In this document: positions 2,450 to 16,158 of the stretch, one piece after another
Layout: every line of letters starts with the position of its first letter
How positions within the stretch are numbered: the first letter of the stretch is position 1
From: a virus
Length of the DNA: 20,111 nt
Direction: 5' to 3' (one strand)
IMG/VR virus record: IMGVR_UViG_3300046804_003423
Coordinates: 1-20,111 of that record
The notes under the pieces: model-generated
The model's input: the letters and a program-made list of their open reading frames with translations, nothing else
Told to the model about the DNA's origin: nothing
The model's database searches: none
Position numbers and translations under genes: made by a program

Positions 2450-2590
2450 ATGGCTAAGACAATTAACAGAACAAAAAATTCTAAGGTTGTAAAGAACAAG
2501 AATGGTTCTACATCAACTTACACCAAAGTCAAAAAGCAATCTGGTGCTACTTCTTGGCGTAAGTCTGGTGGTTCTGGAAAGTCAAGATAA
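2450..2590 (+). CDS. 46-residue highly basic small protein
   Basis: A short ORF with ATG at 2450 and TAA at 2588-2590, two bases after the nuclease stop. GGAG at 2439-2442 is well placed as its ribosome site. The product (MAKTINRTKNSKVVKNKNGS at the start, ending SGGSGKSR) has about a dozen lysines and arginines, many serines and glycines, and no acidic residues. It is probably flexible and nucleic-acid binding, but no family is recognised. It is the last gene before the tmRNA promoter. Confidence 0.7.
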   Translation: MAKTINRTKNSKVVKNKNGSTSTYTKVKKQSGATSWRKSGGSGKSR

Positions 2591-2593
2591 CAG

Positions 2594-2624
2594 TTGACTT
2601 GTTATGTCGTATCCTGTATAAATA
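2594..2624 (+). promoter_or_regulatory. Promoter for tmRNA: sigma70-like and T4-late-like at once
   Basis: TTGACT (2594-2599), a 17-bp spacer and TATAAA (2617-2622) form a near-consensus sigma70 promoter. The same -10 region reads TATAAATA (2617-2624), the exact T4 late-promoter box. Either would start transcription at about 2629-2630, just before the acceptor piece of the tmRNA. It follows directly after the stop of the 46-residue gene. Confidence 0.75.
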
Positions 2625-2696
2625 AGATGCTGAGGTCGTTGAGGCGTAAGGAATAGACGTTTCGGACGGGAGGGCAGTACTCCCCGCCTCCACCAC

Positions 2697-2763
2697 AGAT
2701 ACATTGCGGTGCGTTATACCAGCGTAATTGACTATAGTCACAGAGGTAGAAAGCAGTGTATCT
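2697..2763 (+). other. Precursor helix in the tmRNA intervening segment
   Basis: Bases 2697-2707 (AGATACATTGC) pair with 2753-2763 (GCAGTGTATCT) over 11 bp with one G-U. This prolongs the acceptor stem outward and closes the spacer that must be cut out to give two RNA pieces. The loop contains the palindrome GACTATAGTC (2730-2739). Such a helix is expected of a permuted pre-tmRNA that is processed at CCA (2695) and at G2769. Confidence 0.75.
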
Positions 2764-2831
2764 TTGATGGGGGCGAAATAGGATCGACGTGCGTAATAAA
2801 GGTGCGAAGAGACCAAAAGCAAACGTTAGAT

Positions 2832-2873
2832 GCAAACGATAATGCACCAATCGCAATGGCACTAGCTGCCTGA
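2832..2873 (+). other. tmRNA proteolysis-tag reading frame
   Basis: From the resume codon GCA at 2832 the frame reads ANDNAPIAMALAA and stops at TGA (2871-2873). The context TTAGATGCAAACGA closely resembles that of bacterial tmRNAs (UAGUCGCAAACGA in E. coli). The AND start and the LAA end are the conserved SspB/ClpA- and ClpX-type degron features. The tag is 13 encoded residues plus the alanine brought by the tmRNA itself. Confidence 0.9.
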
Positions 2874-2884
2874 GCATGAGCTTA

Positions 2885-2912
2885 GGGGTGAGCTTGGAAA
2901 CAGAATCACCCC
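2885..2912 (+). other. Stem-loop after the tmRNA tag (P5-like)
   Basis: GGGGTGA (2885-2891) pairs perfectly with TCACCCC (2906-2912) around a 14-nt loop, starting 11 nt after the tag stop codon. This is the place of helix P5 in tmRNAs. A further 7-bp pairing, AGACCAA (2810-2816) with TTGGTCT (2932-2938), closes the mRNA-like domain around it. Confidence 0.65.
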
Positions 2913-2970
2913 ACCTTTTCTTTGCGTAGGATTGGTCTTGTTTAGCACGCATCGTAGAATTAACAAGCTA

Positions 2971-3012
2971 AACGGAACGCCGTGTATCCGTTGCCAAAAA
3001 CCTAAACACGGC
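2971..3012 (+). other. H-type pseudoknot at the 3' end of the tmRNA coding piece
   Basis: Two interleaved perfect helices are visible. AACGGA (2971-2976) pairs with TCCGTT (2987-2992), and GCCGTGT (2979-2985) pairs with ACACGGC (3006-3012). Loop lengths are 2, 1 and 13 nt, the last A-rich, which is classical H-type geometry. It corresponds to the pseudoknot kept downstream of the tag in two-piece tmRNAs. Confidence 0.8.
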
Positions 3013-3035
3013 ACACACATCACAAAGGATATATT

Positions 3036-3269
3036 ATGACTAAGAGTCCATACGAACTTAGATTTGAACTTCTACAATTTGCACACAGCACTTTATCATC
3101 CCAATACTATGCTGAACTTGAACAAACAAAATATATTCAAAGTCTTATCAACGAAGGTAAGGTTGGTAATCCTGAAGAGGTCCACAACTTGAATATTCCA
3201 GATTATCCTACAGTCGAGGAAATCTTTGATCTCGCTGATAAGTTCAAGGCATTTATTGATCAAAAATGA
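3036..3269 (+). CDS. Conserved-type small phage protein of unknown function
   Basis: A 77-residue protein (MTKSPYELRFELLQFAHSTL at the start) predicted to be mostly helical, with an acidic C-terminal half ending PTVEEIFDLADKFKAFIDQK. A small protein with a similar S-P-Y-x-x-R start is common next to the gp33-gp59-gp32 block in marine T4-like phages, but its role is not known to me. AAAGGA (3024-3029) is its ribosome site. It is the first protein gene after the tmRNA, and it overlaps gp33 by 4 nt (ATGA), so it heads the co-translated gp33-gp59 unit. Confidence 0.75.
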   Translation: MTKSPYELRFELLQFAHSTLSSQYYAELEQTKYIQSLINEGKVGNPEEVHNLNIPDYPTVEEIFDLADKFKAFIDQK

Positions 3270-3499
3270 AGATATCAAACATTCGCACCTCAGCAGACTT
3301 TGTAAAAGAAATCGATAAATTAGTCATCAGTAAGAATATTACTTTCTTCGATGCGGTGATTTTATTTTGCGAAAGTAATAATATAGAGATTGAAACAGCT
3401 GCTTCTTTGGTCAAGCAGAGTACTGTACTCAAGGCCAAGATTCAAGTAGAAGCAGAAAACCTCAACATGGTCAAGAAATCTGCACGACTTCCAATATGA
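3266..3499 (+). CDS. 33: gp33-like late-promoter transcription accessory protein
   Basis: A 77-residue protein, shorter than T4 gp33 (112 residues) but matching the compact form seen in distant T4 relatives. It has a helical FVKEIDKLVISKNITFFDAV region, then ILFCESNNIEIETAASLVKQ, and a hydrophobic end ARLPI. In T4, gp33 bridges RNA polymerase (beta flap) and the sliding clamp, and its C-terminal hydrophobic tail contacts the clamp. The end LPI could play that role (inference). The fixed order gp33-gp59-gp32 supports the call. It has ATGA overlaps with both neighbours, indicating coupled translation. Its presence implies that late promoters of TATAAATA type are used. Confidence 0.75.
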   Translation: MKISNIRTSADFVKEIDKLVISKNITFFDAVILFCESNNIEIETAASLVKQSTVLKAKIQVEAENLNMVKKSARLPI

Positions 3500-4068
3500 G
3501 TCCTTTTGAAGCCTTTAAATTGTACACAGCTATCAAGAACCATTTTACAACTGAATCGTATGATTTTTTTAAGTATAATGGTAAAGTGAGAGCATCAGAA
3601 CATTCGTTTGAGACGCGCAAGGACAAGTATATGTTCTACAAGTTGTCTAAGCGTGACAATCCCCTTGAATATCTTGTAGCCAATCTCTCAGAAGATCCTA
3701 AGCTATGGGTTGGAGAATTATTTGACCCAAAGCACGAACAGGTTTATGCTTCTTATATGAAGCGTAAAGAGTCTCTGACATACATCTTTAAAAATGACAT
3801 CGATAAGTTACTAGAGAACTTCGATGATAATTTTAAAGTAGATGAAGGAGACTACCCTTACCTTCTCAAGCTTCTTGTGCAAGGTAAGATAGCTAAGGAG
3901 ACATTCATTATCATCAATGATTGTGTCCGTTTCTATTCTAAGTGGAATAAGCAAATTGCAGATCCTGTGCTGTGGCCAAAGATAGCATTGAACTGTAAGA
4001 AACTTTATCCATTCTTAGAATATGAAAAAGCTAAATACTGTGACGTCTTGAGAAATAAATTCTCTTGA
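3496..4068 (+). CDS. 59: gp59-like loader of the replicative helicase
   Basis: A 190-residue, helix-rich, strongly basic protein; T4 gp59 has 217 residues. The N-terminus MSPFEAFKLYTAIKNHFTTE followed by SYDFFKYNGKVRAS is characteristic of the gp59 N-terminal domain that binds forked DNA. The C-terminal part carries the second helical domain (FIIINDCVRFYSKWNKQIAD and PVLWPKIALNCKKLYPFL). gp59 loads the gp41 helicase onto gp32-covered ssDNA at recombination forks. It lies directly before gp32, its functional partner, separated by a 64-nt leader, and overlaps gp33 by 4 nt. Confidence 0.9.
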   Translation: MSPFEAFKLYTAIKNHFTTESYDFFKYNGKVRASEHSFETRKDKYMFYKLSKRDNPLEYLVANLSEDPKLWVGELFDPKHEQVYASYMKRKESLTYIFKNDIDKLLENFDDNFKVDEGDYPYLLKLLVQGKIAKETFIIINDCVRFYSKWNKQIADPVLWPKIALNCKKLYPFLEYEKAKYCDVLRNKFS

Positions 4069-4132
4069 TATCATATACATCGTATACTACAATAAAATCG
4101 TTCATACATCGTCATACAACGGAGATACAAAT
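4069..4132 (+). promoter_or_regulatory. Leader of the gp32 gene with direct repeats
   Basis: This 64-nt gap is the only real spacing in the gp33-gp59-gp32 block. It contains ATACATCGT twice (4075-4083 and 4104-4112) plus a degenerate copy ATACAACGG (4114-4122) running into the GGAG ribosome site at 4121-4124. The stretch is A-rich and looks unstructured. T4 gp32 represses its own mRNA by binding such a leader, so an operator role is plausible but inferred. No convincing promoter spacing was found. Confidence 0.35.
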
Positions 4133-5047
4133 ATGACTACTATTAACTTCGAAGCCCTCAAGAACAACAGCAAGTCACAGTTCGATAAGTTGACTAGCGA
4201 GCTCAATAAGCTCACACAGGGCACAAATCCAAATCAAGAAAGCACTGGTGATGATCGTTTCTGGAAGCCTGACGTAGATAAGGCTGGTAACGGTTACGCA
4301 GTTATTCGTTTTCTTCCTGCTCCTACTGGAGAAGATACTCCTTTCATCCGTATCTGGGATCATGGTTTCCAGGGTCCAGGTGGATGGTACATTGAGAAGT
4401 CTTTGACTACTCTTGGTAAGGCAGATCCAGTTTCTGAATACAACTCTAAGTTGTGGAACTCTGGTATTGAGTCAAACAAGGAACTCGTTCGTAAGCAGAA
4501 GCGCCGTTTGAGCTTCTACAGCAACATCTATGTTGTTTCTGATCCTACTCGTCCTGAGAACGAAGGTAAGGTGTTCTTGTTCAAGTATGGCAAGAAGATC
4601 TTCGACAAGCTCAACGAAGCTGCATTCCCTCAGTTCCCTGGTGAAGTTCCTGTCAACCCATTCGATCTTTGGAATGGTGCTAACTTCAAGTTGAAGATTC
4701 GTAATGTTGAAGGCTATCGTAACTACGATAAGTCTGAGTTCGATAAGCCAGCACCATTGTTCGATGATGACAGTGAGTTTGCAAAGCGTATTACTAACAT
4801 CTACTCACTTCAGGAGCTTATTGATCTTAAGCACTTTAAGAGCTACGATGAATTGAAGATGCGCCTTGAAAAGGCTCTCGGTAATCTCACTCAGAATGAG
4901 AAGTCATTCATGGATGAAGATGCAGCACCTTCACAGGCAGCACCGGTTATGCGTACTGCTGCACCTAAGGAAGCTCCAAAGGCTAATACACCTTGGGATG
5001 ATGAAGATGATGAAGACTTGAGCTTCTTCAAGAAGCTGGCTGAATAA
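4133..5047 (+). CDS. 32: gp32 single-stranded DNA-binding protein
   Basis: A 304-residue protein (T4 gp32 has 301). It has a basic N-terminal arm, an OB-fold core with WYIEKSLTTLG (85-95), NIYVVSDPTRPENEGKVFLF (131-150) and FDLWNGANFKLKI (177-189), and an acidic tail WDDEDDEDLSFFKKLAE (288-304) for partner binding. It coats ssDNA during replication, recombination and repair. T4 gp32 holds a zinc ion with H64, C77, C87 and C90; here the equivalent segment contains no cysteine, nor does the whole protein, so a zinc-free fold is predicted. Codon choice differs from the neighbours: lysine is essentially always AAG, suggesting very high expression. Its TAA directly abuts the stop of the convergent tape measure gene. 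Confidence 0.95.
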   Translation: MTTINFEALKNNSKSQFDKLTSELNKLTQGTNPNQESTGDDRFWKPDVDKAGNGYAVIRFLPAPTGEDTPFIRIWDHGFQGPGGWYIEKSLTTLGKADPVSEYNSKLWNSGIESNKELVRKQKRRLSFYSNIYVVSDPTRPENEGKVFLFKYGKKIFDKLNEAAFPQFPGEVPVNPFDLWNGANFKLKIRNVEGYRNYDKSEFDKPAPLFDDDSEFAKRITNIYSLQELIDLKHFKSYDELKMRLEKALGNLTQNEKSFMDEDAAPSQAAPVMRTAAPKEAPKANTPWDDEDDEDLSFFKKLAE

Positions 5048-7273
5048 TTAAGGATAGCCAGCACCATAATCGCCATACAACGAGCGATCGAGGTGAGAAC
5101 CAACAGGGGCGGTGGAAACTGCCCCTGAAACTCTAGGTGCTGCAGATGAGCTACCACCTGAGTTGCTAACATTATTATTAATAATAACTGGGTTCAATGC
5201 TCCTGAAGCTGATGTCACAGCATTATCATTAGAACTTTGAATAGCAGTGGTTGCACTACTATTCGTTACTGGAGCAAGACCAGGAACTAGTGGCATACCG
5301 GTAATCATATCATATTCAGTACCAGGTGATACGTAAGGTGTCTGAGGTACTGCCTGAGTTCCTTGAGAAGAAGCTGTTGGAGTACCTTGCTCGCTTGGAC
5401 CTATAAACTTTTTGAGTGTATTTTTTACCATTCCATCTGGTAGTGCATCGACTATGTTAGAAGGAAGGTCTGCAAAGAATTTAGCAATACCGTTTGCAAA
5501 ATTGCCTATCTTTTCTGCAATAAAGCCAACTGGATTGAATGAGAGTACATCATCCATTGCTTTAGATAAAGTATCTCCACTGAATAAAGACATCACTTTA
5601 TCCTTAAGCCAGTTGAAGCCACCTAAAATTGTATCAACAAGATTGAACCCATCCCACCATTCCTTAAATGAATCTATCATTTTAGGAACTGCTTCGGTCA
5701 CATAATCTTTTACGTATTTTACTGTATCAATAAAACCATCAACAAAGCTACTAAACATTTTTTCAAAACTAAAAGAATTTAATATTTCTTTAGCTTTATC
5801 GAATCCAAAAAATCCTAAGACCCAAGCAGCTGCATCCTTGATCATATCAAGTGGACCAAAGATTAGTGAGTTAAATAGTCCCTTAATAGCTCCAGAAATA
5901 GCACCTACTATTCCATCTTGCTCATAGCCTTCCATTGCACCTTTAACAGTATCCCACACTGACATAACTATAGTTAAAGGAAGAGCAAGTTTACCAACAA
6001 TTTTAGCTACTGTACCAAAGATAGATCCAAACTTGGATAGACCACCAAACACAGTAGAAAATAACTCACCTATTGTTTCAACAACACCCATAATAGGTTT
6101 GAAGAACTCACCTATCTTAGAAAACACACTAGCAATTTTAGGTCCAACGGCTAATGCCAGTTCTCTAAGGTAAGCAAAAGCACCTATGATAGGTTGAATA
6201 GATTCTACTATCATATCAGCAAAGTTAGTTTTATCTAAGTAATCTCTAATATACTTTGCAGCTCTGTCAAAACCAAAGAACTCTAGTATATTAGCAAATA
6301 ATCTTCCAATTCCTGTTATAAGGAAGTCTTGGATAGTACCAAATGTTCGTAGGATAGCTGTTAGATAATCACCTTTAATTAGATCATCAAATATCTTAGA
6401 TAGATTTGTGAAGATCTTTACCCAATCTTGTTTCTCTAATGAAGCTACTATTCCCACTAAGATGGCAATAGGTATAGCTGCTTGAGCAGCAAATGCAGCC
6501 AATCCAGTAAAAATAGATCCCAAATTCTTAAACATACCTAAAATAGGTTGTAGCATTTTAGTGCTGAAACCACCTATTGAGGAAAGTATTCCTCCACCAG
6601 CTCCACCTTTACCACCCTCGCCTTTTTGCTCTAGAGCACCAGGAATTGCAGCTGCTTCTCTTTGCGCTTCAATATTTTGGGCACCTTTTCCTTTAATAGC
6701 ATCAAGGATATTGAGAAGGATTTCTTTATTGACTTCAGTAACAGCTAGAATTCCAGTCAACACCTCAACTTGCGTTGCCTGAAGTGTTTCTGCTTTACCT
6801 GGACCCTTCTTATCTCTTACAATGCTTCCTAAGGCTAAACCTAGACCTTTAAGACCTAGAGATTCATTCATAGCAGCTGCTATTCCCTTTATAGAGAAAG
6901 CACTTCCAATTGTCTGTTCTTTAATTGCAGAACCAACTGTACCAGCAACACCAGCTGCAGAAGCACCTAACGGTCCAGTAGTTTGTAGAGCAGCACCTGA
7001 TCCCTTAGATCCAGCACCCTTTTTGTTGCTAGCAGTTTCTTGTTTGATACTATCAATTACTTGTTTTATTGACTGCTTTTCTGCATCTCTGACAGCTTTG
7101 GCTTCTTTTCTTTTTTCTACAGCTGCTGCTTTTGCTTCTTTTGCTGTTTTAGCCTCTTCAGCTAAAGCCTCTTCTACAGCTTTTCTAGCTTCATCAGATA
7201 ATTTGAGATTTGCCAATTCTTCTGGCGTATATTTGCCATACCCAGATGATCTATTCGAAGGACCCTTAGCCAT
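5048..7273 (-). CDS. Tail tape measure protein (gp29-like role)
   Basis: A 741-residue protein (T4 gp29 has 590). Residues 26-80 form a charged Ala/Lys/Glu coiled coil. Glycine/alanine-rich hydrophobic stretches follow (about 103-150, 226-279 and 405-470), then amphipathic helices with two copies of an FFGFDxA motif (332-338 and 488-494). A Pro/Ser/Thr-rich linker spans 625-690, and the C-terminus is Gly/Tyr-rich (GDYGAGYP). Length, composition and position right after gp26/gp51 identify it. It sets tail length inside the tube and is probably passed into the host envelope. Its ATG overlaps the stop of the gp51 frame (TAATG), so translation is coupled to the frameshifted product. Confidence 0.88.
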   Translation of the reverse strand: MAKGPSNRSSGYGKYTPEELANLKLSDEARKAVEEALAEEAKTAKEAKAAAVEKRKEAKAVRDAEKQSIKQVIDSIKQETASNKKGAGSKGSGAALQTTGPLGASAAGVAGTVGSAIKEQTIGSAFSIKGIAAAMNESLGLKGLGLALGSIVRDKKGPGKAETLQATQVEVLTGILAVTEVNKEILLNILDAIKGKGAQNIEAQREAAAIPGALEQKGEGGKGGAGGGILSSIGGFSTKMLQPILGMFKNLGSIFTGLAAFAAQAAIPIAILVGIVASLEKQDWVKIFTNLSKIFDDLIKGDYLTAILRTFGTIQDFLITGIGRLFANILEFFGFDRAAKYIRDYLDKTNFADMIVESIQPIIGAFAYLRELALAVGPKIASVFSKIGEFFKPIMGVVETIGELFSTVFGGLSKFGSIFGTVAKIVGKLALPLTIVMSVWDTVKGAMEGYEQDGIVGAISGAIKGLFNSLIFGPLDMIKDAAAWVLGFFGFDKAKEILNSFSFEKMFSSFVDGFIDTVKYVKDYVTEAVPKMIDSFKEWWDGFNLVDTILGGFNWLKDKVMSLFSGDTLSKAMDDVLSFNPVGFIAEKIGNFANGIAKFFADLPSNIVDALPDGMVKNTLKKFIGPSEQGTPTASSQGTQAVPQTPYVSPGTEYDMITGMPLVPGLAPVTNSSATTAIQSSNDNAVTSASGALNPVIINNNVSNSGGSSSAAPRVSGAVSTAPVGSHLDRSLYGDYGAGYP
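5104..5127. other. 10-bp GC-rich hairpin with GGAA loop
   Basis: CAGGGGCGGT (5104-5113) pairs with ACTGCCCCTG (5118-5127), with one G-U, around a GGAA tetraloop as read on the + strand. It lies 57 nt past the gp32 stop, inside the 3' end of the tape measure gene. No U-tract follows on either strand, so it is not a typical intrinsic terminator. It may mark or protect the 3' end of the gp32 transcript (inference). Confidence 0.45.
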
Positions 7274-7455
7274 TATTTACTTTTCTTTCTCTGCTCTTCT
7301 ACTTCTTTGAGATGTCTAATTAATAATTCTAAGAAAAGGTCACGTTCGTATGGATACATCTCATAAACTTCTGTCAAACTATATTTATGGTGTTGGACTA
7401 GAGAAAAGAGAGTATTATAGTAGACCGCGATATTACTATATCCGGTCGTTATGTA
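7273..7455 (-). CDS. 51: gp51-like frame, made as a -1 frameshift extension of gp26
   Basis: After the slip at 7461-7455 the -1 frame encodes 60 residues, starting YITTGYSNIAVYYNTLFSLV, continuing with LTEVYEMYPYERDLFLELLI and ending EQRKKSK, with the stop overlapping the tape measure ATG. The YPYERDLFLELL pattern resembles gp51-type and other tail-assembly chaperone C-termini. The frame is closed upstream by TAA, and no ATG, GTG or TTG lies between that stop and the slip site, so its full length can be made only by frameshifting. The fusion (8144 to 7273) would have about 290 residues. By analogy with lambda gpG/gpGT it is a chaperone for the tape measure protein. The gp51 name is from similarity of motif and position. 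Confidence 0.82.
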   Translation of the reverse strand, partial: YITTGYSNIAVYYNTLFSLVQHHKYSLTEVYEMYPYERDLFLELLIRHLKEVEEQRKKSK

Positions 7456-7461
7456 AAAAAA
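7423..7461 (-). promoter_or_regulatory. Programmed -1 ribosomal frameshift signal
   Basis: Reading the minus strand, the slippery heptamer T TTT TTT (7461-7455) lies in the gp26 frame as AAT TTT TTT, two codons before the TAA. A 7-nt spacer (7454-7448) follows, then a hairpin: GACCG (7447-7443) with CGGTC (7427-7423) and GATAT (7442-7438) with ATATC (7433-7429), one bulged G and an AGTA loop. Slip site, spacer length and stimulatory stem all fit the known pattern. Confidence 0.85.
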
Positions 7462-8144
7462 TTGTTTAATCCCTTTAGAACTACTTCGAATGACTTACCA
7501 TCTTTATTCTTGAGCTTTACTGTGTGTTCTACGGATGGCATCGTTTCAAAAAAATCACGAATTTTGATCATGCTATCCATAGGAAGGCTATTAACAAATT
7601 CTTCTAATTCTTGATCAGAAAAATCGTCGTATACATTATCGTTATCGTAGATCTTATCAATACACTTGAACAGAATCTCTAGTACCGCCTGATCTTGATT
7701 TTGACTGCTTTCAATTAACTTAATTTCATTTAAGGTAGGATATCTCATCTGCACACCAATATCACCATGAACGGTGAACTTGTTGGAATGCTTAGGATTA
7801 TACTGAACTTGAATCTCATCGAGATTAACCTTGAATCTAATAACCTCTTCTGTCTCTGGTACCTTATATTCAAGATCTACTACTTCACCAACAGACTTTG
7901 ATCTTAGTTTCAAGAAAATGTATTCAATATCAAATGTCGATAATCTATCAACATCAATAGCCTCAATAACGCTATTACGGATGATTTGTTTGACGGCATT
8001 AATGATATCGTCAGAATTTTCTGAAGACTTTGCCATCATAAGAAGTTTTTCTTCTTGAACAGTGAATGGTCTTATATTCACTTCTTGCTTTGTAGAAGGA
8101 ATAGTGATAGCATATGTTGGATGCTTAATTTTAGGTAGTGCCAT
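7449..8144 (-). CDS. 26: gp26-like baseplate hub / tail assembly chaperone (zero-frame product)
   Basis: A 231-residue protein (T4 gp26 has 208) starting MALPKIKHPTYAITIPSTKQ, then IRPFTVQEEKLLMMAKSS. It has the typical LSTFDIEYIFLKLRSKSVGE segment of the T4-like gp26 family and ends at TAA 7451-7449. In T4 it is needed for hub assembly. Its place just before the tape measure gene and its frameshift link to gp51 argue for a chaperone acting on the tape measure, like lambda gpG. AGGGA about 9 nt upstream is the ribosome site. It follows the gp54-like gene after 17 nt. The family call is confident, the chaperone role is inferred. Confidence 0.88.
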   Translation of the reverse strand: MALPKIKHPTYAITIPSTKQEVNIRPFTVQEEKLLMMAKSSENSDDIINAVKQIIRNSVIEAIDVDRLSTFDIEYIFLKLRSKSVGEVVDLEYKVPETEEVIRFKVNLDEIQVQYNPKHSNKFTVHGDIGVQMRYPTLNEIKLIESSQNQDQAVLEILFKCIDKIYDNDNVYDDFSDQELEEFVNSLPMDSMIKIRDFFETMPSVEHTVKLKNKDGKSFEVVLKGLNNFFT

Positions 8145-8161: not shown

Positions 8162-8998
8162 TTAAAATAATGATAAAATAGAAGAGAATATATTTACTTG
8201 TCTCTGAATATAAATTGGTGAAGTTATGTTTAGAATCTCTCTTACATCGCTTACATTTCTATCTACTCTTGTTTGAGTATAATTGACTGCATTAGATCTT
8301 GCATTAGATCTAGCTGTAATAGTTCCTTGATCGAGTGTCTGAGCATTCCAATACTTGTAAGAGAATGTAACAGGAATTCTTACAAGAGTATCATCCATAC
8401 CCCAACCTACCTGAATATCACCAACACTGATAGGATAAGCTTCGTTGAGTGTATATTTAATCACACCCTGTTCCTTTGCAGGAGGAGGATTCTTTGGTTG
8501 ATTGGGTTGCTTATTAGCAGATCTATTTTCTTTGGTAGCTAAATTAGAAGAATTGCTCTTTGTGGTAATGTTACCTGTATCATCATAATGAATAATTTCT
8601 ACAGTACCAAAATAGTCCTTAGGGTAGGCAAGGAGGTTTGGCTTTAAACCTGCAGACTCACCATTACGAGGTGTATTCTCATTCCAATTAAAGATAGATT
8701 GCATCCACGAATGGAAGAACTTTAATACTTTTCCATCTGAATCGCAATAGAACGTAAGAGGAACATCCTGGAAGATAGGAGCATAAGGTACCTTGTTTAC
8801 GTTACCGTAACCAGTCATTCTGATTTCTTCTGTTTGTAATGCAAATCCAGGAAGGACCGCACTCTCACAAAGAAACTCAAATATTCTATCGCCCTGCTTC
8901 GAAGAAGGAGGAGTAATTCTTACTAAAAATTTAGATGCTTTGGTTAGACCGCCAACTCCGTTGACAACACCAAGCATTTCGTTGACATTAAATGCCAT
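8162..8998 (-). CDS. Tail-tube-fold baseplate protein, gp54/gp19-like
   Basis: A 278-residue protein with a tail-tube-type domain: ASKFLVRITPP (21-31), EFLCESAVLPGFALQTEEIR (41-60), the loop VPYAPIFQDVPLTFYCDSDG (70-89) and LKFFHSWMQSIFNW (92-105). A second beta part starts near 177 (GVIKYTLNEAYPISVGDIQV) and includes LVRIPVTFSYKYW. T4 gp54 (320 residues) starts tube polymerisation on the baseplate and shares the gp19 tube fold, so a gp54-type initiator is the best fit. A low-complexity Asn/Lys/Pro loop (about 141-177) is inserted between the two halves. The start overlaps the upstream gene by 11 nt. It could alternatively be another tube-like hub protein. Confidence 0.7.
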   Translation of the reverse strand: MAFNVNEMLGVVNGVGGLTKASKFLVRITPPSSKQGDRIFEFLCESAVLPGFALQTEEIRMTGYGNVNKVPYAPIFQDVPLTFYCDSDGKVLKFFHSWMQSIFNWNENTPRNGESAGLKPNLLAYPKDYFGTVEIIHYDDTGNITTKSNSSNLATKENRSANKQPNQPKNPPPAKEQGVIKYTLNEAYPISVGDIQVGWGMDDTLVRIPVTFSYKYWNAQTLDQGTITARSNARSNAVNYTQTRVDRNVSDVREILNITSPIYIQRQVNIFSSILSLF

Positions 8999-11563: not shown

Positions 11564-12968
11564 TTTAAATCCTTTAGAAATTAAAATAAAAGACGTTACC
11601 ATTACTAAGTTTAATGGTACAGATAAGATGAGCATTCTACCTCAATTTGTGGAGTTCACTATCTATCAGTCTATATTTGAACCTTCGATTAAAGCAGAAA
11701 TGCTTGTTAACGATCAAATTGGTTTATTTGCCAACTATCCCTTTACTGGTGAAGAGTTGGTTACAATCAGCTATGAACAAGTATCAAGTGTACCTGGAAC
11801 GACTGGACCTGGTAAATCAGAAAAAGATCTCAAGTTCATCATTAAGGGTGTAAGAGATATCATTATTGGTGATAGAGCTAGATCATTAATGTATGTTGTT
11901 GATCTAGTTTCTCCTCAGTTTCTTCAAAACGTCCGTAAGTATGTTTCCCATGCCTACTACGACCGTGTAGAAGATATGGCTGAAAAGGTTTATCAAGAAT
12001 ACATTAACGAACCTACAAAAGAAAAATACAATATAGATAAACCTTTCAATAAAGAAGAGTCGTTGAAGGTTAGATCTCTAGTTGTTCCTAATGTAAGACC
12101 ATTTCAAGGTATACAATGGCTAGCAAAGCATGCTGTAGCCAAAGACTATGAAAATCATTTCATTTATCTTTTCTATGAAGATCTAGAGCGTTATAACTTT
12201 ATTACACTACAACAAATTGTAGAAGAAGCTCTTAAGAAGAGGGAAGAGTTAAGAGCAAAGAAATTTAGATTTGTTTCTGATACTGAGGTTGCTAGTAGTT
12301 CTGCAGCTGCAGGAGATCCAGATCAAGATAAGAGATTGATTACCAACATTGTCAACAATAAGAGATTTTCTTCTATAGAAAAAATTTCTGGTGGTTACTA
12401 TCAGAACGAATTGTTTGAAATTAGTCTTCTTCAAAAAGCATTCAATAGCACTCCTACAGAGTTAAAAGATAGAAACGATACTAAGTTTCCGTTAGAAAAA
12501 TTTCCTCTCAATACCAAAGAGTATATTGCTTACGTAAAGAACGAGACCAATAAGACTGAATACTCCAACCGTATTCGTTATATAATTAACAACTATCAAG
12601 ACTTTGATGGTGGTGGCCGTTCTCAGCCAGGCTATAGATACAAGTTTGGCAACACCACTAAATATATGTACGCTTTGAATCAGATTGATCTTACAATCAC
12701 TGTTCCTGCTAATATGGATCTCAAAGCTGGCGATGTCATTTATTGTGACATACCAGAAAATCATGGTTTTAATAATGTTGAAACAGACAAATATATTTCA
12801 GGTTTGTTTGTTGTCACAGAAGCCAAGCATGTTATTTCATTTGGTGGAAGAGCTGCTACTTCACTAAGAATTAATAAAGATGGTTACCTCAACAGTCTAT
12901 TTGAAAACTCATTATACAACACCTCTAGTGTTCTTGGCACTGGTATGAGAGCTGGTGGCCCTAGATGA
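11556..12968 (+). CDS. 27: Baseplate hub protein, gp27-like
   Basis: A 470-residue protein (T4 gp27 has 391). The N-terminal part (about 5-135) has the alternating beta pattern of a tube-like hub domain (IKIKDVTITKFNGTDKMSIL, then VEFTIYQSIFEPSIKAEMLV). A helical and mixed region follows (about 170-280), then a second beta-rich domain (about 395-460) with LKAGDVIYCDIP and ISGLFVVTEAKHVISFGG. This layout fits the gp27 hub family, which forms the trimeric ring that connects tube to spike. Position directly before the gp5-like gene, with a 4-nt overlap, is the usual hub-spike arrangement. The assignment rests on layout and context more than on a signature motif. Confidence 0.75.
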   Translation: MANLNPLEIKIKDVTITKFNGTDKMSILPQFVEFTIYQSIFEPSIKAEMLVNDQIGLFANYPFTGEELVTISYEQVSSVPGTTGPGKSEKDLKFIIKGVRDIIIGDRARSLMYVVDLVSPQFLQNVRKYVSHAYYDRVEDMAEKVYQEYINEPTKEKYNIDKPFNKEESLKVRSLVVPNVRPFQGIQWLAKHAVAKDYENHFIYLFYEDLERYNFITLQQIVEEALKKREELRAKKFRFVSDTEVASSSAAAGDPDQDKRLITNIVNNKRFSSIEKISGGYYQNELFEISLLQKAFNSTPTELKDRNDTKFPLEKFPLNTKEYIAYVKNETNKTEYSNRIRYIINNYQDFDGGGRSQPGYRYKFGNTTKYMYALNQIDLTITVPANMDLKAGDVIYCDIPENHGFNNVETDKYISGLFVVTEAKHVISFGGRAATSLRINKDGYLNSLFENSLYNTSSVLGTGMRAGGPR

Positions 12969-13975
12969 TTAACAACGACTTCTATGGTGACAGATTTAGG
13001 TGGTTTGTTGGCGTTGTAAAAGACGTAGGTGGTGATCGATCACGCGTTCGTGTAAGAATATTTGGTATTCATCATACAGAAGATACTTCTAAAGTAGCTG
13101 ATGATGATCTTCCTTGGGCTTTGGTTATCTATCCTACAACAGGTGGTCAGACATCTGGTGGTACTGCTTCACATGGTCTTGTTCCTGGTACGTGGGTAGT
13201 TGGCTTCTTTGTTGATGCTGAAGATTCTCAACAACCTATAGTACTTGGTGTTATCAATGGTGGTGAAGGTTCTATGAACAACTCACCTGGAGGAACTGGT
13301 GCTGGAACACAAGGTGGTTCTTCACCTGGTAGCTCTACTGGTGCTGGCCAAGGAACTTCTACTCCCAATCCAAATGGTACAACCACTGCCAATGCTCCTG
13401 GAGCAACTGCTTCTGGTCCTACTACGGGTCAACTTTCTGGCAGTGATAATGAACAGAAAGTATACAATTACTTCTGGGAAAGAATTAAGAAAGAAGCTGC
13501 TTATACTGGTGATATTAAATGTATTGTTGCTGCCATCACAGGTCACGTAGCAAACGAATCAAGATGTGATCCACAAGCCAAGAATGGTAATGATTGGAAT
13601 AAGGAAGAGGGTTCCAAAGCTTCTTATGGTATTGCACAATGGCGTGAAGGCAAGTATGATCGTTATGGTCCAATGCTAAGATTCTGTGGAGTAGAGACAA
13701 GAGTTCAACCACCCAATCTTCCTTCTTTAGAAAAACAATTAGACTTTATGTGGCATGAGTTTCACACTTCTGAAAAGAGTGGTTACAATAGATGCATTTC
13801 TGCTGCTACTTTAGAAGATGCAATGGTTGGTGTTTACATGACAGGTCGTGGCTCTGCGTGGCAAAAAATTAATGGCACATGGATTGTTAATCGTAGTGAA
13901 GGCACATTTAAAAATAAGATGGACAATGCAAGACGTATTTTCTCTTCTAAGTCATATACAGGTAATGCAGTATGA
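12965..13975 (+). CDS. 5: gp5-like hub protein: OB-fold plus tail lysozyme domain
   Basis: A 336-residue protein. Residues 12-100 form a gp5-type OB-fold (FRWFVGVVKDVGGDRSRVRV, then HGLVPGTWVVGFFVD and PIVLGVINGG). A Gly/Ser/Thr/Asn linker follows (101-160), then a phage-tail lysozyme domain (161-336) with GHVANESRCDP, where E198 is the likely catalytic acid, and ASYGIAQW (219-226). The lysozyme would open peptidoglycan during tail penetration. Unlike T4 gp5, the beta-helical needle is not part of this protein but is on a separate gene two positions downstream. It has 4-nt overlaps on both sides, showing coupled translation. Confidence 0.88.
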   Translation: MINNDFYGDRFRWFVGVVKDVGGDRSRVRVRIFGIHHTEDTSKVADDDLPWALVIYPTTGGQTSGGTASHGLVPGTWVVGFFVDAEDSQQPIVLGVINGGEGSMNNSPGGTGAGTQGGSSPGSSTGAGQGTSTPNPNGTTTANAPGATASGPTTGQLSGSDNEQKVYNYFWERIKKEAAYTGDIKCIVAAITGHVANESRCDPQAKNGNDWNKEEGSKASYGIAQWREGKYDRYGPMLRFCGVETRVQPPNLPSLEKQLDFMWHEFHTSEKSGYNRCISAATLEDAMVGVYMTGRGSAWQKINGTWIVNRSEGTFKNKMDNARRIFSSKSYTGNAV

Positions 13976-14358: not shown

Positions 14359-16158
14359 ATGTCGGTTGATAGATTTACAGATAATGATAAGTTAGTTAAG
14401 GACGTCACTAATAGAGAAGGTGATGGATTAGGTCGTTATGATGGACCTCAGGAGCTTGGTGCTACGGTACTTCCTTACTATGAGATTTCAGTAAAAGAAA
14501 GACCAGGAGCTGCTAGTGACTCCACCATTACTCATACTGGACCAGGTGCAGGCAACATGCCTGGCATTGGATCATCTACTGACTTGCAGGGATTTGTTTC
14601 AGCAACTGGTAATAAGGTAATCGTAGATAATACGTTTGGTGCCGATAAGATTATCCTCCAACATCACTCTGGTTCTACAATTCTCATCGATAGCGATGGT
14701 TCCATTCATATGGTATCCACAGGCAAGAAGGGTATTAGTACTGTAGCGCCTACTGGTGATAATACTGTTTATGCAAGAAAACATCTAATATTAAAGGGTG
14801 ATGGAAGAATATCTTTAGAGACTGAAGGTGATCTTGATATTAATGTTGGTGGTAGTCTTAATATCGATGTGGGTGGTGACTTTGTAGTAAATGTTGGAGG
14901 CTCTAAAGAAGAATCTATTGATGGCTCTGTATCATTTGAATGTGCTAAAGATATGAGTACTATGATTGCAGGTGACTACAGAGTAACATCAGCTGGTAAG
15001 TTTGGTCTTCAATCTCCTAAGTCAGTGGATATTGATACTGGTGGTCCAATGAACATCAGATCAGATTCTACACTTGCTATAAATGGTCAAGATAATGTTT
15101 CATTGAATTCTAATAATCAAATAAGAATCAATTCACAAGACTCAACCCAGATTAAATCTAAAGGATTGATGTCACTTCAATCTCAAAAGTCTTTCTCTAC
15201 AAGAGCAAAAGAGACCTATAAGATTTCTGCCGGTGGTGCTTTATCGTTAAATGGTTCTTCCACATTGGATGTGTTAGCAACTGGCAAAGTTCAAATCAAG
15301 GGTTCTGCTACAGACATCCAAATTGGTGGTTCTCCTAACGTTGATGATCCAACTGATATTGATACTATTAGCCTTGCTCAATACCCAGATTCTAATACAG
15401 TTATTGATAACATCACTTCGCTAAGAGAAGCACCAGACTTCCCAATGAATGCAAATAAGATGTCTGCTGAAAAGTTTGCGTTGTATGAACTAGAAGGTGG
15501 TAATCCCAATCCTAAGGCGAAGGCAAGAGCATTTGGTAATAAGGGTGCTGGTATGCAATATAAAAATACCAGCGAGGGTGTTGCAGCTTCTATTGCTGCT
15601 ACAGGAGCTTATGATAGACCAGGTGGAAGCGTTACAAATAATGGTAAGGCAGAACAAAATCCACTTCCTGTTCCTAATTCAATATTCAATACCAATGAAA
15701 AGATATCAAGACACGTTACGGTTGGTCAGATTATTAACATTAGAGCATGTCCTCCATCTCAACAAAAGGAGGTTCTCAAAGAAGCTATGAATGTTGCTTG
15801 GAATGTTATAGATCCTCTTTTTGAAAAGTTTGGTTCTAGAGTTCAGTTAACTAGCTGGTATAGAGATAATTCAGCTAACCATGTTAAAGGTGGAGCAGTT
15901 GATTTGAGATGCTCTAATAAACCTGACTTTGGATTTACTGCTGAGATTGCAGCATATATTAGAGATAATCTTCCATACAATAAACTTCTTTTAGAAAAGA
16001 ATGATCAGGGTGGTATTCATGTTCACGTGGAGTCAGCAAAGCCTGGCCAAAATGGTGGTGGAATTGTATTGACTTGCGCAGACCCTAAGTGTCAATCAAC
16101 TCAACAAGGACTGCAATTATCATTTGCAGTAGCAGCATTACAAGGTAGAACGGCTTAA
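14359..16158 (+). CDS. Beta-helical baseplate spike with C-terminal M15 peptidase domain
   Basis: A 599-residue protein. Residues 85-325 are a chain of short beta repeats rich in G, S, D and N (for example LDINVGGSLNIDVGGDFVVN), typical of the gp5C / VgrG-type triple beta-helix needle. A linker follows (about 330-440), then a domain at about 445-560 with the M15A (D-Ala-D-Ala peptidase) zinc signature: SWYRD (499-503), H508-VKGGAV-D515 and H554-V-H556. T4 gp5 carries lysozyme and needle in one chain. Here the needle has its own gene and its own peptidoglycan peptidase. The last 40 residues carry TCADPKC (572-578), a possible metal or disulfide site. It should form the tip region of the tail. 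Confidence 0.85.
   Translation: MSVDRFTDNDKLVKDVTNREGDGLGRYDGPQELGATVLPYYEISVKERPGAASDSTITHTGPGAGNMPGIGSSTDLQGFVSATGNKVIVDNTFGADKIILQHHSGSTILIDSDGSIHMVSTGKKGISTVAPTGDNTVYARKHLILKGDGRISLETEGDLDINVGGSLNIDVGGDFVVNVGGSKEESIDGSVSFECAKDMSTMIAGDYRVTSAGKFGLQSPKSVDIDTGGPMNIRSDSTLAINGQDNVSLNSNNQIRINSQDSTQIKSKGLMSLQSQKSFSTRAKETYKISAGGALSLNGSSTLDVLATGKVQIKGSATDIQIGGSPNVDDPTDIDTISLAQYPDSNTVIDNITSLREAPDFPMNANKMSAEKFALYELEGGNPNPKAKARAFGNKGAGMQYKNTSEGVAASIAATGAYDRPGGSVTNNGKAEQNPLPVPNSIFNTNEKISRHVTVGQIINIRACPPSQQKEVLKEAMNVAWNVIDPLFEKFGSRVQLTSWYRDNSANHVKGGAVDLRCSNKPDFGFTAEIAAYIRDNLPYNKLLLEKNDQGGIHVHVESAKPGQNGGGIVLTCADPKCQSTQQGLQLSFAVAALQGRTA

Follow-up and report, generated by a model that had tools for sequence, protein, structure and literature searches.

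A tail assembly chaperone gene of a T4-like myophage that is probably read by programmed −1 ribosomal frameshifting

In a T4-like myophage, the 3' end of the gene for gp26 is overlapped by a second open frame, 60 codons long, which runs up to the tape-measure-like gene and has no start codon near its beginning. This raises a puzzling question: how can such a frame be translated in full? We addressed it in the window, by which we mean the whole stretch of DNA analyzed, 20,111 nucleotides of a viral contig of metagenomic origin (IMGVR_UViG_3300046804_003423, positions 1 to 20,111). A sequence-only reading of this DNA had proposed programmed −1 frameshifting in a cassette like lambda G/GT. Our results support that proposal: slip-site conservation, selection on the −1 frame, RNA structure, a Shine-Dalgarno (SD)-like element and a fold like that of HK97 gp13 together make it very probable that this tail assembly chaperone (TAC) gene is read by programmed −1 ribosomal frameshifting.

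Architecture of the overlapping frames

The genes on the minus strand follow the order gp4-like head-closure protein, gp2-like DNA end protector, gp54-like tail tube, gp26, the −1 frame and the tape-measure-like ORF (Table 1). A family search with this last, 741-residue ORF gave no informative match, and its name is taken from synteny with annotated relatives; with the tape measure assigned in this way, the order of tail tube, gp26-gp51 and tape measure is the position expected of a G/GT-type chaperone. A scan of the window for promoters and terminators returned matches at chance level.

Table 1. Positions of the features at the gp26-gp51 locus (window coordinates).
Feature	Position	Strand	Basis or remark
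Tail tube (gp54-like)	8162..8998	−	phrog_45, E = 4e-35; PF23849; directly upstream of gp26
gp26 / TAC-N, short tail assembly chaperone, 231 aa, ends ..NNFFT	7449..8144	−	PF12322, phrog_150
SD-like element AAAGGGA	7470..7476	−	Sequence; 8 nt before heptamer; duplex −4.4 kcal/mol
Slippery heptamer T_TTT_TTT	7455..7461	−	In phase; kept as T_TTT_TT(T/C/A) in 95/97 loci
Spacer ACATAAC, 7 nt, includes gp26 stop TAA	7448..7454	−	Sequence
Downstream hairpin, 10 bp, one bulged G, 4-nt loop	7423..7447	−	Folding
−1 frame TAC-C ("gp51" domain), 60 codons + TAA	7273..7455	−	phrog_634, E = 1.3e-16; pN/pS 0.18; hhalign
Tape-measure-like protein, 741 aa	5048..7273	−	Position, composition; name from synteny

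The gp26 protein is a clear member of its family (PF12322, E = 1.3e-62; phrog_150, E = 4e-67), with a Pfam T4_baseplate score of 211.7 bits against a curated cut-off of 24.5. Its gene ends AAC AAT TTT TTT ACA TAA, with the stop at 7451-7449, and the T7 run lies in phase exactly where the sequence-only reading had put it. That reading placed the run two codons before the gp26 stop, which is right if the stop itself is counted; in sense codons, only ACA stands between them. The −1 frame re-reads T7455, and its 60 codons begin YITTGYSNIAVYY and finish RKKSK (full peptide, YITTGYSNIAVYYNTLFSLVQHHKYSLTEVYEMYPYERDLFLELLIRHLKEVEEQRKKSK); its TAA (7275-7273) overlaps the tape-measure ATG (7273) as TAATG. 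Direct inspection also bears out the description of this frame as closed upstream and lacking an early start: a TAA stands at 7497-7495, no ATG, GTG or TTG precedes the slip site in the −1 frame, and the first starts after it are TTG 7377 and ATG 7359. A slippery site near the 3' end and a long open overlapping frame are the architecture of a G/GT-type gene, and the predicted frameshift product, TAC-NC, would join gp26 to TAC-C in a protein of ∼290 residues.

The peptide encoded by the −1 frame matches phrog_634, annotated "baseplate hub assembly catalyst" (gp51). The same profile matches T4 gp51 at about residues 205-248, pointing to a related C-domain, and hhalign pairs the peptide with the C-terminus of T4-type gp51 (probability 94, E = 1e-7). 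PHROGs alone provides this match; in Pfam the isolated peptide fell into no family.

Selection, conservation and stimulatory elements

To ask whether the −1 frame is used as protein-coding sequence, we compared the six closest sequences (the window and the related loci L002-L005 and L019) over the 31 codons after the slip site. From the slip site to the first ATG, the −1 frame has a pN/pS of 0.18, frame 0 one of 0.96 and the +1 frame one of 2.18, and the variable columns assigned by third position number 25 for the −1 frame versus 12 and 4 for the others. This pattern points to purifying selection on the −1 frame upstream of its first ATG. In the window, L002 and L004, the first start codon appears only about 74-92 nt past the gp26 stop (a TTG at about 74), and the full reading would therefore be reachable by frameshifting only, as had been argued from the window sequence.

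A T7 run is not unusual by itself: the window holds 6 copies, with 15 expected by chance. Within gp26 itself, about 30 codons upstream, a second T_TTT_TTT has the same phase (7554-7548, minus strand, in RDFFETMP). The heptamer alone is therefore no proof of efficient shifting, and for these reasons we tested its conservation. The upstream copy is avoided in most relatives, often through TTC, and a −1 slip there would hit TGA immediately.

A gp26 relative is encoded in 733 phage records, and the sample compared consists of 97 sequences (12 annotated phages, 84 IMG/VR loci and the window). An in-phase T_TTT_TTN closes gp26 in 95 of them (N being T in 45, C in 45 and A in 5), bearing out the prediction that the run would be conserved among relatives, and in 35/37 when one sequence per cluster (<50% identity) is taken. 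Between heptamer and stop lie a single sense codon in 68 of these 95 loci, 0-3 in 94 and 9 in one; Rhizobium phage RHph_I1_18 has T_TTT_TTA nine sense codons ahead of the stop. Other [NDSATG]FF sites of the same loci are slip-like in 31/190 cases; at the one further FF site that is conserved in gp26, mostly as Phe-Phe, 4/84 are. TTT encodes the first Phe in 84/84 loci at the slip site versus 32/84 at the other conserved FF site (TTC in 52/84), a contrast that arises partly by construction because the slip-site search demanded TTT, so that the real test is the count of 95/97; the loci share descent, and P values are indicative only, but the two sites of this single gene differ sharply. What goes beyond chance is the conservation of the heptamer, not the occurrence of T7. 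Wherever an annotated relative that we read lists gp51 downstream of gp26, the gp51 frame is −1 with respect to that of gp26.

Downstream of the slip site, the 7-nt spacer and 10-bp hairpin described earlier were both recovered, the latter with one bulged G (GACCGGATAT-AGTA-ATATC(G)CGGTC, 7447-7423), and the 60 nt downstream fold at −12.0 kcal/mol. Conservation of the stem, proposed as a check, held in part: all ten pairs are kept in five of the six close sequences (window, L002, L003, L004 and L019), but L005 breaks four pairs and loses the hairpin. Within this clade of six we found no covariation, and three pairs vary one-sidedly. Across the 95 loci, 50-nt segments starting 5 nt past the slip site have a mean folding z of −1.48 ± 0.17; the remaining offsets in this comparison give −0.04 to −0.64, and the fine profile reaches its maximum at +6. 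The shuffles kept dinucleotides but not codons, so we take this excess of structure as support rather than proof.

Upstream of the slip site, anti-Shine-Dalgarno pairing exceeds that of synonymous-codon controls family-wide, by 1.4-2.3 kcal/mol at −11 to −15 nt (for example, −5.4 versus −4.0 kcal/mol). The window's own element is modest (Table 1). The slip site of E. coli dnaX has an upstream SD element, which the SD-like element of this family resembles.

These observations suggest how the locus would be read. Most ribosomes would end at the gp26 stop and release the short form (TAC-N), while a minority would pause at T_TTT_TTT, aided by the hairpin 7 nt downstream and probably also by the SD-like AAAGGGA. 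Paused ribosomes would move back one base and append the 60 residues of TAC-C, giving the long form. If the lambda pair gpG/gpGT is a guide, the tape-measure protein, whose gene follows immediately, would be coated by the short form, and tail-tube subunits would be brought in by the long form. We infer the shift itself, its efficiency and the chaperone function from the sequence architecture, conservation, selection, structure excess and fold similarity observed here.

Competing explanations for the −1 frame

The gp51 domain might instead be a free small protein, made by stop-start reinitiation or internal initiation with no frameshifting. Some relatives fit such a route: an ATG lies within 15 nt of the slip site in 35/95 loci, several of them as TAATG or TGATG, and Vibrio phages K474 and YC have TAATG but no heptamer. 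The sequence-only reading had named homologues of this kind, lacking the run and giving gp51 its own start, as what would overturn it; they form a minority, K474 and YC among them. As a general explanation, however, free synthesis is very unlikely. It does not account for the conserved residues that precede any start codon in the window, L002 and L004, the heptamer is retained even in loci that have the ATG, and such ATGs stand about 22 nt away from the SD-like element, which is too far for normal initiation. Loci with an ATG by the slip site may express a free gp51 domain alongside the frameshift product.

The gp26 genes of K474, YC and Klebsiella phage Menlow all lack the slippery heptamer, and YC and Menlow belong to the Ackermannviridae. 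The gp51 domain still occupies the −1 frame in all three. K474 and YC have TAATG there and Menlow lacks any evident start, which suggests another expression route for gp51 in these phages.

Even less probable is slippage of RNA polymerase at the T run, which would add a base and join the two frames in the transcript. T7 is indeed a homopolymer within a phage gene, but 50/95 loci carry T6C or T6A, which are short for slippage, and the codon phase, the downstream folding and the upstream SD-like element are conserved as ribosomal shifting predicts. We rejected a homopolymer sequencing or assembly error that split one continuous gene, an extremely improbable explanation even for an error-prone T7 in a metagenomic virus contig, because relatives show the same split: it recurs in 95 loci, where both T6C and T7 are found, and in the complete genomes of the cultured phages S-RIM8, Syn19, P-HM1, Cr30 and nt-1.

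Ribosomal frameshifting may be embedded in a broader scheme, which we put forward tentatively and consider rather doubtful. Throughout the non-T4-type branch of T4-like phages, the signal would be a dnaX-like combination of three parts (SD-like element, T_TTT_TTN and hairpin), and many members would add a third product, a free TAC-C, by initiating where gp26 stops; in T4 and the phages closest to it, two paralogous genes would have taken the place of the signal.

Relation to T4 gp26/gp51 and to other tail assembly chaperones

Comparison with T4 required one correction. The fusion had been described as uniting two hub genes that are separate in T4, but T4 gp51 (249 residues) already contains both parts, a PF12322 domain (1-201) and the C-domain that is coded in the −1 frame elsewhere, while T4 gp26 (208 residues) is a PF12322 domain alone. 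By domain content, then, T4 gp51 is the counterpart of the predicted fusion and T4 gp26 that of the product made without a shift, so that T4 lends the assignment independent support. The product pair would be identical, one short and PF12322-only, one long with the C-domain; the difference is that T4 makes it from two divergent genes and the window from one gene and a frameshift. The 3' end of T4 gene 26 reads GAG TTC TTT GAG TTA CTA TAA, and the slip site is absent. In the T4 record, genes 26 and 51 (3803-4429 and 4480-5229) are paralogues, gp51 being the long form, and Enterobacter phage EC-F2 has two adjacent same-strand ORFs instead (2501-3794).

T4 gp51 is needed for assembly, yet the particle does not contain it (PMC3004832). 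The comparison suggests a concrete reading of gp26 and gp51, T4 hub proteins of long-unclear role, as the short and long chaperones of the tape measure. Annotations of many T4-like marine phages show "gp51" as a small free-standing protein begun at an internal ATG; most likely this annotated protein is the C-terminal half of the T4 gp51 equivalent that frameshifting yields, and the annotation would need to be revised.

The predicted structure of gp26 provides a link to TACs beyond the T4-like phages. In an AlphaFold2 model of the window protein (pLDDT 86.8), residues 1-94 align with 3fgx (Z = 7.8), the HK97 TAC gp13, 2ob9 (Z = 7.7 over 84 residues, 3.8 Å) and YqbN, 3klu (Z = 7.4), although values of Z below 8 can reflect a merely common arrangement, according to the tool's note. 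The next match is 5ir0 at Z = 5.0, and other, unrelated chains do not exceed 2.9. By Foldseek alone, HK97 gp13 comes second and third for gp26, with insignificant E-values, and a sequence-profile search of the PDB with gp26 gave no relevant match. In the structural alignment, the modeled fold of the gp26 N-domain matches that of HK97 gp13. For a model of T4-type gp51, VIA-align gave a best Z of 4.0 and no TAC match among candidates listed by Foldseek, a list that contained no TACs.

Like lambda gpG/gpGT and HK97 gp13/gp14, the gp26 locus lies ahead of the tape measure, has a −1 shift site near the 3' end of the gene, is predicted to yield a short and a long product, and has a TAC-like fold in its N-domain. 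Unlike those proteins, gp26 is larger (231 residues), with an extra beta-rich middle and a helical C-terminal part, and has no detected sequence similarity to PDB chains. The TAC locus of Pakpunavirus Adele and the Andersonviridae also has a conserved poly-T −1 slip near the end of TAC-N and a long form overlooked in annotation; it belongs to other phage families, and its slip motif is GTTTTT (PMC12846349).

Frameshifted TACs in T4-like phages were already reported in 2022, and the mechanism as such is not new. Vladimirov, Gautam & Davidson (Virology 566:9-15, PMID 34826709) treated the TAC genes of T4-like phages, as cited in the papers on PRFect (PMC10274946) and on Adele (PMC12846349). The citing papers credit this work with poly-T slip signals in TAC-N genes of these phages (PMC12846349) and with T4-like phages in which a short gene and a fused long gene stand in for frameshifting. 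The TAC-N and TAC-NC of that work, as these papers present it, are the short and long forms of the same gp26/gp51 family, and the window TAC therefore joins a known class. The window's lineage (L002-L005, L019) may lie outside the coverage of the 2022 study, and, judged against these citing accounts, the family-wide hairpin and SD-like statistics may be new.

Two further observations concern the rest of the window. A phage-encoded, permuted (two-piece) tmRNA lies at 2590-2915 on the plus strand (Rfam alpha_tmRNA, 103.7 bits; tmRNA_permuted, 99.9 bits); ARAGORN missed it. A two-piece tmRNA is also present in 10/20 related T4-like records and has been reported previously for marine T4-like phages (PMC9004378), and the one found here hints at a host lineage among the alphaproteobacteria. 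The gp5 hub/lysozyme appears to be split over two plus-strand ORFs, the first (12965-13975) covering the N-terminal part of the gp5 profile and a lysozyme-like region, and the second (14359-16158) the C-terminal part of gp5.
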